Of a stretch of DNA of 64,000 bases, positions 15,906-18,854 are shown one piece after another. Position 1 is the first letter of the stretch; each line of letters begins with the position of its first letter. The stretch is from Haloarcula limicola (lineage in GTDB: Archaea; Halobacteriota; Halobacteria; Halobacteriales; Haloarculaceae): assembly GCF_010119205.1 (NCBI RefSeq), contig NZ_WRXM01000002.1, positions 302,982-366,981 of the forward strand. The letters run 5' to 3'. A program made the position numbers and the translations under genes. Below the pieces are notes generated by a model, which ran no database searches, was not told the DNA's origin, and saw only the letters and a list, made by a program, of their open reading frames with translations.

Positions 15906-16997
15906 ATGACAGCGCTGTTCTCTCCGCTCGACCTCCGAGAGACGACGATACCGAATCGGATCATGGTCTCGCCGATGTGCCAGTACTCCTGTGAGGACCG
16001 CGACGGCCTCGCCACGGCGTGGCACCGCACCCACCTCGGGTCGCGGGCCGTCGGCGGCGCGGGTCTCGTGATGGCCGAAGCCACCGCCGTCGAACCGCGG
16101 GGCCGAATCACCCCGGAGGACCTCGGCATCTGGAGCGACGAGCACGCGGCGGCGCTCGAACCCATCGCCGAGTTCGTCCGCGAGCAGGGCTCCGTGCCCG
16201 CCATCCAACTGGCTCACGCCGGCCGAAAGGCCTCGACGAGCCGTCCGTGGGAGGGCCACGACCCGCTCGGCCCCGACGAGGGCGGCTGGGACGTCGTCGC
16301 CCCCAGCGACGACCCCTGGCCCTACGAGGGCGGCGAGGCCCCGACGACGGAGAAACTCGACCAAGACGGTATCGAGTCGGTGATCGACTCGTTCCGCGCG
16401 GCCGCCGAACGCGCCCTCGACGCCGGTTTCGAGGTCGCGGAGGTCCACGCCGCCCACGGCTACCTCCTCCACGAGTTCTGCTCGCCCGTGACCAACCACC
16501 GCGAGGACGACTACGGCGGCGACTTCGAGGGCCGGACCCGCCTCGCCCGCGAGGTCACCGCCGCCATCCGGGACGTGTGGCCCGACGATAAGCCGGTATT
16601 CGTCCGCATCTCCGCGACGGACTGGCTCCCCGACCGCGAGTCGTGGACCGTCGAGGACTCGGTTCGACTGGCCGACGACCTCCACGAGGTCGGCGCGGAC
16701 CTCATCGACGTCAGCGGCGGGGCCATCACCCCCGACTCCACGCCGCCCTACGCCGGCCCGAACTACCAGCTCGAATACGCCGAGCAGATCCGCGAGGAGA
16801 CCGATTCCGACATCGGCGTCGGCACCGTCGGCGGCATCACGACCGCCCAGCAGGCCGAGGCCATCGTCGGCAACGACCGAGCCGACCTCACCGTCGTCGG
16901 CCGCGAGCACCTGCGCGACCCGTACTTCGCGCTCCACGCCGCCGACGAGTTGGGCGCTGAGGTCGAGCCCCCGATCCAGTACCACCGCGCCTTCTAG
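15906..16997 (+). CDS. NADH:flavin oxidoreductase, old yellow enzyme family (YqjM type)
   Basis: The 363-residue protein begins LFSPLDLRETTIPNRIMVSPMCQYS, the classic OYE barrel entry with the YqjM-type cysteine (Cys24). AIQLAHAGRKAS and VHAAHGYLLHEFCSPVTNHRED carry the His residues that bind substrate carbonyls, and the phosphate loop is GTVGGITTAQQAEAIV...VVGREHLRDPYF. These FMN enzymes reduce alpha,beta-unsaturated carbonyls with NAD(P)H. The length and motifs are complete. It stands alone upstream of the palindromic element. Confidence 0.92.
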   Translation: MTALFSPLDLRETTIPNRIMVSPMCQYSCEDRDGLATAWHRTHLGSRAVGGAGLVMAEATAVEPRGRITPEDLGIWSDEHAAALEPIAEFVREQGSVPAIQLAHAGRKASTSRPWEGHDPLGPDEGGWDVVAPSDDPWPYEGGEAPTTEKLDQDGIESVIDSFRAAAERALDAGFEVAEVHAAHGYLLHEFCSPVTNHREDDYGGDFEGRTRLAREVTAAIRDVWPDDKPVFVRISATDWLPDRESWTVEDSVRLADDLHEVGADLIDVSGGAITPDSTPPYAGPNYQLEYAEQIREETDSDIGVGTVGGITTAQQAEAIVGNDRADLTVVGREHLRDPYFALHAADELGAEVEPPIQYHRAF

Positions 16998-17059
16998 CGC
17001 GGGTTGTCGTTCTTGGGCTCGTACGAGTCGTAAGTCGTCGAGCGAGAGGAACCGTGGAG

Positions 17060-17328
17060 AGCCAGAAAGCCCCCGCCCGAGCGCGGTCGCTGCGTGACAT
17101 ATTCTCGCTCGCGTCGCTCGCTCGAATAGAGGTCACGCAGACGACCACGTAAACGCGCTCGGGCGGCCCCTTTCAGTCCCTCCCGTGTCGGCTATCCGGC
17201 CAGCCACAGGGTGGGACTGAAAGGGGCGGCTAGCTGGACGAAGGCGGGCGACGCAAGCACTGGAACGTACGTAGTGAGTGAAGGGCACAGCGAGCCCCCC
17301 GAGTTCAGCCAGTCGGGGCTTTCTGGCT
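17060..17328. repeat. 269-bp nested inverted-repeat element (MITE-like or structured RNA)
   Basis: The 377 bp between the OYE and DUF368 genes contains a closed set of perfect inverted repeats. Outer 14-bp arms are AGCCAGAAAGCCCC (17060-17073) and GGGGCTTTCTGGCT (17315-17328). Inside, arm A is a 13-bp stem (17073-17085 with 17154-17166) extended by 8-bp TGCGTGAC/GTCACGCA (17091-17098 with 17132-17139). Arm B is a 15-bp stem, GCCCCTTTCAGTCCC (17166-17180) with its complement at 17213-17227, with further partial pairing inside. A third weaker arm lies between 17228 and 17314 (CACT/AGTG, CTGG/CCAG). Stems A and B abut at 17166. It codes for no acidic protein. Terminal repeats suggest a non-autonomous mobile element; a structured RNA is the other reading. 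Confidence 0.7.
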
Positions 17329-17374
17329 GTTCGCGTTCGAAATCGACCATCGAAAAACCAACAGCTCAAACGGC

Positions 17375-18379
17375 TCAGATAGAGTCGAGGTCGAGGTCGA
17401 CAGCGTACCAGTCCAGTACCAGGAGGAAGGCCGCACCGACGACGGCGGCACCGGCGAAGGCCAGCGCCACGTCCGTCGTGAAGCCGACCTCCGCGCTCAC
17501 TTCCTGTACGGGGGCTCGGAGCGCGCCGACGACGAGGCCGACGAGGAAGGCCATCGTCGCGCGGCGGTTGCGGTCGAGTGCCCGGCGGACCACACGCGAG
17601 ATCGTGAACAGGCCGACGAGGCCGCCGACCATGAACGTCCCGACGACGGTCCCGTTCTCGATCACCGGCGCGAGCGGACCGCCGGTGACCGTAGCGAGCA
17701 GCGAGTCGATAAAGGCGCTGAGCGTGTCGGACATCCGGGTGTACTGGCCCAGAATGACCAGCAGGAGCGACCCGGAGATGCCGGGGAGGATCATCGCGCT
17801 GACGCCGATCGCGCCGGCGACGAAGATCAGGAGCAGGCCGCCACCCTCCAGGAACTCGACGGGACCGGCCAGTAGGAAGGCGAGGACGACGCCGACGACG
17901 CCCGAGACGGCCTGAAAGGCGCTTTCGAGCGAGAGCTCGCGCAGCAGGATGACCGCGGAGATGGCGATGAGGCCGAAGAAGAAGCCGAACAGCAGCGTCG
18001 GGACCGATTCGCTGGCGATGTGGACGATACGCGTGACGAGGATGACGGCGGTGAAGACGCCGACGGCCAGCGCGAGGCCGAACCAGCCGTCGATCTCCTC
18101 CCAGATGGCCAGCGCCCTGCGGACGGAGACGCCGCCGTCGACCGGCAGCAGGGCCGCGAGGAAGTCGACGATTCGCTCGGGCGTGATGGCCGTGATCATG
18201 GCGATGAGCCGGCCGTAGATGCCCGCGATGAGGGCGATGGTCCCGCCGGAGACGCCCGGGACGGCGTCGGCGCTGCCCATGCAGATGCCGATGAGGAACG
18301 TGCGGGCCCACTCGCGCAGCGGGGGGACGGAACCACGGAGCGTCGGCAGCTCCTCGGTCGTCTGGTCGGCGGTCGTCAT
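17375..18379 (-). CDS. DUF368 family polyprenyl-phosphate transporter (PopT-like)
   Basis: This 334-residue membrane protein has about ten helices and the paired re-entrant motifs of DUF368: GSADAVPGVSGGTIALI near residue 36 and SAMILPGISGSLLLVILG in the second half. In bacteria DUF368 proteins (PopT) were shown to recycle undecaprenyl phosphate across the membrane. In an archaeon the likely cargo is dolichyl phosphate, used for N-glycosylation and the S-layer. That archaeal role is inference. The Tat-free, acidic N-terminus should be cytoplasmic. The gene ends 47 bp from the palindromic element. Confidence 0.85.
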   Translation of the reverse strand: MTTADQTTEELPTLRGSVPPLREWARTFLIGICMGSADAVPGVSGGTIALIAGIYGRLIAMITAITPERIVDFLAALLPVDGGVSVRRALAIWEEIDGWFGLALAVGVFTAVILVTRIVHIASESVPTLLFGFFFGLIAISAVILLRELSLESAFQAVSGVVGVVLAFLLAGPVEFLEGGGLLLIFVAGAIGVSAMILPGISGSLLLVILGQYTRMSDTLSAFIDSLLATVTGGPLAPVIENGTVVGTFMVGGLVGLFTISRVVRRALDRNRRATMAFLVGLVVGALRAPVQEVSAEVGFTTDVALAFAGAAVVGAAFLLVLDWYAVDLDLDSI

Positions 18380-18481
18380 TGTCCCCTCGTACCGCCAACG
18401 CGGTGAAAGCCCTTGTGGAGTCCACCGAGTCGGAGAGAAACGCGCTTGTCGGCGACTGGCCGTCTCGACGTCCCGGCCCCG

Positions 18482-18727
18482 TCAGGCCGCGCTCTCGACG
18501 GTGAGGACGCCGTTGTTCACCGTGACGTCCCCGTCGTCGTCGGGAAGCGGCACGTCGAACTCCGTCCGCCGCCCGGGGGCGTCGACGGCGACGATCGCCG
18601 TGTCGCCGACTATCTCGACGGTCACGGCGTCGCTCGCCGCGGGACCGAAGTCGACCGCGACCGTCCACTGGTCTCCGTGTTCGGAACGCGAGACGTGTAG
18701 TTCGTCGGCGTCTGAGGTAGTGTTCAT
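18482..18727 (-). CDS. Small Hsp20/alpha-crystallin-fold protein
   Basis: The 81-residue protein is almost all beta strand: WTVAVDFGPAASDAVTVEIVGDTAIVAVDAPGRRTEFDVPLP then GDVTVNNGVLTVE. The closing strand pattern (xxNGVLTVxxP-like) is that of Hsp20 family domains, though the protein is shorter than a full small heat-shock protein and lacks the C-terminal I-x-I anchor. It may be a monomeric relative rather than an oligomeric chaperone. It lies 102 bp upstream of the DUF368 gene on the same strand; no functional link is evident. Confidence 0.65.
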   Translation of the reverse strand: MNTTSDADELHVSRSEHGDQWTVAVDFGPAASDAVTVEIVGDTAIVAVDAPGRRTEFDVPLPDDDGDVTVNNGVLTVESAA

Positions 18728-18854
18728 CGGGCGACCGTGTGTAGGTGCTACACACGGATAGGTGGACGGCTGGCATGTGCCAAAGTCGGAGGCGACCGCC
18801 GGTTCAGACCCCCGTAATACCGGCGAAAAACAGGTCTTCGAGTGGTGAGACGGG

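Follow-up and report, generated by a model that had tools for sequence, protein, structure and literature searches.

The locus and the structure of the element

The window, i.e., the whole stretch of DNA analysed, covers 64,000 nucleotides of the genome of Haloarcula limicola. Two convergent ORFs flank the element: a + strand ORF ending at 16997, named OYE-like by resemblance, and a − strand ORF at 17375-18379, named DUF368-type after the sequence-only reading that preceded this analysis. The nested palindrome which that reading described at 17060-17328 was borne out by the sequence and by RNA folding (Table 1). Its perfect outer 14-bp arms and its abutting helices in a cloverleaf-like plan were as described, the first stem with its extension was present with measured lengths of 12 and 9 bp, and the arms of the third hairpin, which had been called weaker, paired at approximately 10 of 13 positions. 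RNA folding of 17040-17350 gave −185.5 kcal/mol compared to a mean of −127.4 (sd 5.9) for 100 dinucleotide shuffles, none of which was as stable (z = −9.9), in line with the earlier statement that the structure exceeds chance. The element was also correctly read as non-coding; the ORFs crossing it are spurious and no protein-like frame was conserved among copies. The long spurious ORFs, at 17133-18776 (−) and 17211-17915 (+) of the window, occur because of the high G+C, and automatic annotation could take the element for coding sequence owing to them.

Table 1. Parts of the window copy of the element and their positions in the window.
Feature	Position	Remarks
P1 outer stem, left arm AGCCAGAAAGCCCC	17060-17073	Sequence; family-wide core GAAAGCCCC, outer bases vary yet pair
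P1 outer stem, right arm GGGGCTTTCTGGCT	17315-17328	Complementary to the left arm at every position
P2 hairpin, 12-bp base stem and 9-bp extension	17074-17165	Rarer P2 type, also found at locus L009
P2 base stem CGCCCGAGCGCG/CGCGCTCGGGCG	17074-17085 / 17154-17165	Sequence
P2 extension CTGCGTGAC/GTCACGCAG	17090-17098 / 17132-17140	Sequence
P3 central hairpin CCCCTTTCAGTCCC...GGGACTGAAAGGGG	17167-17226 (arms 17167-17180 / 17213-17226)	Most conserved part of the family
P4 hairpin	17227-17314	Family motif GACGCAAGCAC...CACAGCGAGC, the inverse of the usual P2 motif
Left spacer, outer limit approximate	17010-17059	Unique to the window copy; drawn from family statistics (P1-locked 3-bp periodicity)
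Right spacer, outer limit approximate, to the 3' end of the DUF368-type ORF	17329-17374	Family statistics as for the left spacer

Copy number and range of the family

The window feature belongs to a dispersed, non-coding haloarchaeal family that extends over the whole class. A genome search for the arms, which the sequence-only reading had proposed, gave 34 exact occurrences of the P1 half-arm CCAGAAAGCCCC and 25 of the P3 arm CCCCTTTCAGTCCC. Approximately 25 dispersed matches with 70-85% identity were found within the same 3.9-Mb genome, and 44 of 60 relatives had a match. That reading would have regarded a sequence with no other copies as a one-off structure; copies proved abundant in the genome and in its relatives. 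In an even draw over the class, the exact P3 arm was present in 215 of 391 Halobacteria genomes and 62 of 86 genera, with up to 76 occurrences per genome; the control for this count was near zero and the reversed control had no exact match to the P3 arm. The P3 hairpin pattern was found in none of about 100 genomes outside the class, drawn from the other classes in the phylum sample, and the phage records searched for the element had no match. Named records with the family include Haloarcula, Halomicroarcula, Halorarius, Halonotius, Haloterrigena and Natronococcus. The family was not found described in the literature searched: the P1 and P3 sequences were not found in relevant papers, their text matches being to unrelated, mostly eukaryotic ones, and the RepRanger text had no words starting with "halo".

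Shared anatomy and covarying stems

Copies shared a fixed plan of outer stem P1, hairpin P2, central hairpin P3 and hairpin P4. The P1 core was GAAAGCCCC/GGGGCTTTC, and its outer base pairs varied between genera with pairing kept (GCCA/TGGC, CCTC/GAGG, GCGT/ACGC, GCAA/TTGC). The P3 consensus was CCCCTTTCAGTCCCACCC and its complement. The P2 motif recurs in inverted form inside P4, which makes the entire element roughly symmetric. In 205 of 260 hairpins the inner motif ACTCGCTGCGC...GTGCTTGCGTCG was present with at most two mismatches per half. The outer 11 bp of the 260 hairpins showed 91% complementarity within a copy compared to 55% between copies, with 103 distinct perfectly paired 11-bp P2/P4 stem sequences. 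The covariance across relatives that had been suggested as a check was present as compensatory pairing: stem sequences vary and pairing within each copy is kept. In addition, paired small perfect hairpins (e.g., GTTCGAGAGAGCG..CGCTCTCTCGTGATCACGAAAGACC..GGTCTTTCGGAC) were nested inside P2/P4 in many copies (loci L008, L016, L019, L021, L026, L036, L050, L055, L064 and L081). The same kinds recurred across genera and are possibly a separate small insertion.

Genomic context and comparison with the closest relative

All 105 copies with gene calls were intergenic and none was inside a called gene; calls were made with an acidity heuristic instead of a trained gene finder. The genes around copies were tandem in 49 cases, divergent in 27 and convergent in 13, compared to 237, 72 and 97 for the remaining pairs of adjacent genes in these loci, so that convergent gaps were fewer for copies (13/89) than for other gaps (97/406). 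The median distance from P1 was 74 bp to a gene end and 98 bp to a gene start, with gene ends often at 46-75 bp and gene starts often at 86-100 bp; therefore the element and its spacers often fill the whole gap.

The window's genome (G000) was compared with its closest relative (G026) over 267 kb of alignable sequence with 88.8% identity. Copies differed in presence between the two: three of the five sites compared (368k, 384k and 649k on G000:C2) were empty in G026, and the intergenic sequence there was unrelated. Flanks at these three sites were too diverged for a clean joint to show, and absence at the G026 sites could reflect loss instead of insertion. Both sites common to the two genomes were rearranged internally. 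At the window site (320k) the interior was inverted in G026 and one hairpin was missing, and at the 620k site a different hairpin was lost in each genome. Separately, G026 carried several hundred extra bases of small-gene-like sequence (G026:C12:654155-654748) at the position of a solo P1 half-arm in G000 (G000:C2, around 600131). The OYE-like/DUF368 gene pair was without the element in most genus-mates whose locus was readable.

Ends, target duplications and IS6 elements

Terminal inverted repeats (TIRs) resembling GGTA[CG]TGTT[CT]AG[AT]T were present on both sides in 22 of 106 delimited copies and in none of the control. They were mostly located 39-40 bp outside the GAAAG of P1, and the length between ends was about 330-450 bp. 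The 8-mers adjoining the TIRs had a mean match of 6.1/8 compared to 3.96 when mispaired, with none of 20,000 permutations as good, and five TIR-bearing copies had perfect 8-bp target duplications. The IS6 elements of the genus (approximately 697 bp) showed the same two TIR types, GTGTTTAGTTA and GTGTTCAGATAAG, and many had perfect 8-bp duplications. An apparently intact IS6 of 696 bp was located at G000:C5:102282-102977 (L203, L256), with TIR GGTCGTGTTTAGTT, a perfect 8-bp duplication GTTTAAAC and a transposase matching NF033587 (E 1.5e-54). The window copy had close homologues in the TIR-bearing copies L036 and L037 (E 1.8e-46 and 9.7e-44).

For the window copy and most genus copies, no recognisable TIR or target duplication was found. 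Copy number and IS6 number were uncorrelated (rho 0.24, p 0.25), and one genome (G001) had at least 28 family matches and no IS6 hit. The sequence-only reading had offered a MITE with terminal inverted repeats and had suggested a search for target-site duplications. The dispersed family, the empty sites and the IS6-like TIRs with 8-bp duplications make such an element the best supported of the three options in that reading, the TIRs and duplications being found in the subset and not seen for the window copy. The 14-bp arms themselves are not the terminal repeats of the element: true termini, in the copies that have them, were located some 39-40 bp beyond the arms, and the window copy shows no recognisable one.

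Three-base periodicity and CTAG in the spacers

The sequence of the approximately 50 bp outside P1 differed in every copy, yet it had a 3-bp periodicity locked to P1. Every third base in the P1 register avoided C and favoured G or A; one phase had G at about 0.41 and C at about 0.11, and the other two had C at about 0.25. Across 199 non-redundant spacers the chi2 was 401 compared to a maximum of 36 in 2,000 permutations, and the G and C spectra peaked at 3.0. The periodicity was present for every P1 type tested, and on both gene-start-facing and gene-stop-facing spacers (chi2 155 and 94; permutation maxima 34 and 39). In control intergenic DNA it was nearly absent (chi2 16). The tetranucleotide CTAG is scarce in this genome (0.28/kb in the window) and was approximately tenfold enriched in the flanks, at 3.1/kb overall and 5.0/kb in the genus, as counted for copies in loci L001-L169. 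It was mostly found 50-56 bp from P1 on either side, and its distance to GAAAG was 3n+2 bases in 86 of 99 cases.

Solo P1 half-repeats GAAAGCCCCGCTAGC were observed beside the element (L004, L007, L019, L024, L042, L073, L080, L106, L107 and L109), with unique spacers in between whose lengths were multiples of 3 bp. Tandem repetition of the half-repeat unit together with its spacer was seen in L042 and L073, with a period of 45 bp in L073. Distances from the extra P1-CTAG half-repeats to the next P1 were 66, 66, 66, 66, 54, 54, 45 and 45 bp.

Several sources of the pattern were considered and rejected. For coding, P4 varied in length without regard to multiples of 3, and neither a start nor a frame was conserved; although the pattern is RNY-like, coding was rejected since TGA was over-represented in the inward spacer frame and the third-position G+C was non-haloarchaeal. 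Complementarity between left and right spacers was little above expectation. The frame of the neighbouring genes does not account for a rhythm that occurs on start- and stop-facing sides alike and hardly at all in control intergenic DNA. Decayed triplet repeats were rejected, as the first bases of adjacent triplets were not correlated. The spacers may conceivably be an active part of the element that is read in three-base steps by a recombinase filament, a ribosome or another triplet-contacting protein, a suggestion we regard as rather improbable. To our knowledge, no such coded flank has been described for any MITE. Statistically, the P1-locked rhythm is a strong and so far unexplained signal, shared by spacers that are not homologous, and it is testable in public genomes.

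Interpretation of the family

The family is probably a non-autonomous MITE-type family with a nested-palindrome interior, spread at least partly by IS6. The element would consist of the P1-P2-P3-P4 interior with about 50 bp of copy-specific spacer per side and would insert into intergenic gaps, its intact ends being IS6-type TIRs with 8-bp target duplications. IS6-type ends, where intact, suggest that at least part of the family is mobilised in trans by IS6-family transposases. Since TIRs and duplications occur in a subset only, IS6 mobilisation is well supported for that subset, and for the remaining copies we infer it; the end-less window copy presumably moved in the same way as the IS6-ended copies. 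After insertion the ends would in many cases change beyond recognition, the palindromic core would be kept, and the interior would invert and lose hairpins through its own repeats. Stem covariation and the 3-bp spacer periodicity are not expected of an ordinary MITE and count against one.

Whatever its mode of spread, the core may instead be a structured RNA (a small RNA, a 3'-UTR stabiliser or a bidirectional terminator) with its fold under selection, as the sequence-only reading had also offered. The strong conservation of pairing within copies across 103 distinct perfect stems and the inner motif kept in most hairpins agree with this. Mismatches in unique outer stems were also skewed, with 70 A.C compared to 18 G.T (p = 2e-8), which gives G.U on the outward strand; however, the inner motif, and with it the hairpin as a whole, makes more G.U on the opposite strand (592 vs 329), so the wobble signal favours different strands in different hairpin parts and indicates no consistent functional strand. 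Rfam 15 gave no match above the gathering score, only sub-threshold chance hits to hairpin families, and hairpins were lost at orthologous sites. Template switching in palindromes can restore pairing without selection. For a terminator in particular, the scarcity of copies in convergent gaps is unlike what terminators show. With the wobble strands in conflict, selection at the RNA level is possible but not established, and we consider an RNA function of the core unlikely. The strong palindrome in the gap beside the DUF368 gene would fit a one-off cruciform in the DNA that controls this gene, but the family is dispersed beside many different genes and the element is rearranged in G026. As most genus-mates checked keep the gene pair without the element, this regulator is unsupported and, as a one-off, refuted; we give it hardly any credence.

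It is also conceivable, if doubtful, that the core moves as an independent mobile element through some enzyme other than the IS6 transposase (e.g., with ends at CTAG), and that the IS6-ended copies arose when the core was captured by IS6 ends. IS6 TIRs are missing from most copies, copy numbers are not correlated with those of IS6, and the enriched CTAG at its regular distance from P1 and the extra P1-CTAG half-repeats adjoining some copies fit such an element. On the other hand, neither a duplication nor a clean joint was seen at CTAG, the left CTAG was also present at the empty 649k site, a candidate enzyme was not found, and in the TIR-bearing copies the ends stand at a constant distance of 39-40 bp and are accompanied by duplications.

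Comparison with known systems

Prokaryotic MITEs are mobilised by IS elements in trans (reviewed in PMC10969869) and have been described in Haloquadratum (PMC3119063). The present family is likewise short, non-coding, multicopy and intergenic, and a subset shares TIRs (22/106 copies with those of IS6) and, in TIR-bearing copies, 8-bp target duplications with the IS of the genus. Unlike MITEs, it keeps a four-helix nested-palindrome interior class-wide while stem sequences vary, most copies are without recognisable ends, and the spacers are 3-bp-periodic. SMR-A of Haloquadratum walsbyi is about 110 bp long, has no target duplications and mostly targets PATEs/IS605 elements (PMC3119063). Like SMR-A, the family is haloarchaeal, short and transposase-free with inverted repeats; judged by the published description, it differs in its length of about 330-450 bp between ends, its duplications in a subset and its intergenic sites. 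The PATEs of Haloquadratum are without TIRs or duplications and related to IS605 (PMC3119063). They resemble the family in being haloarchaeal, non-coding and palindromic, whereas a subset of the family carries IS6-type repeats together with 8-bp duplications. REP/BIME/REPIN sequences are bacterial extragenic palindromes in many copies (PMC3116915, PMC2817692) and are linked to tyrosine transposases, with a REP length of 20-40 bp (PMC3733652). The family is also extragenic, palindromic and in many copies, but its unit of about 270 bp with a multi-helix plan places it outside REP/BIME on size. IS6 transposons (NCBIfam NF033587) have the same TIR types and 8-bp duplications as the subset, and differ in that the family has no transposase and an unrelated interior. 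Overall, sequence comparison suggests a known kind of element (MITE-type), apparently new in its nested-palindrome design and its unexplained spacer signal, and at least partly IS6-driven.

The family names a source of structured intergenic DNA across Halobacteria and ties that source to IS6 elements. It helps to explain intergenic regions that are unalignable even between related species. Finally, its covarying stems pose the question of whether selection (on RNA or cruciform) or template-switch repair keeps the palindromes perfect.
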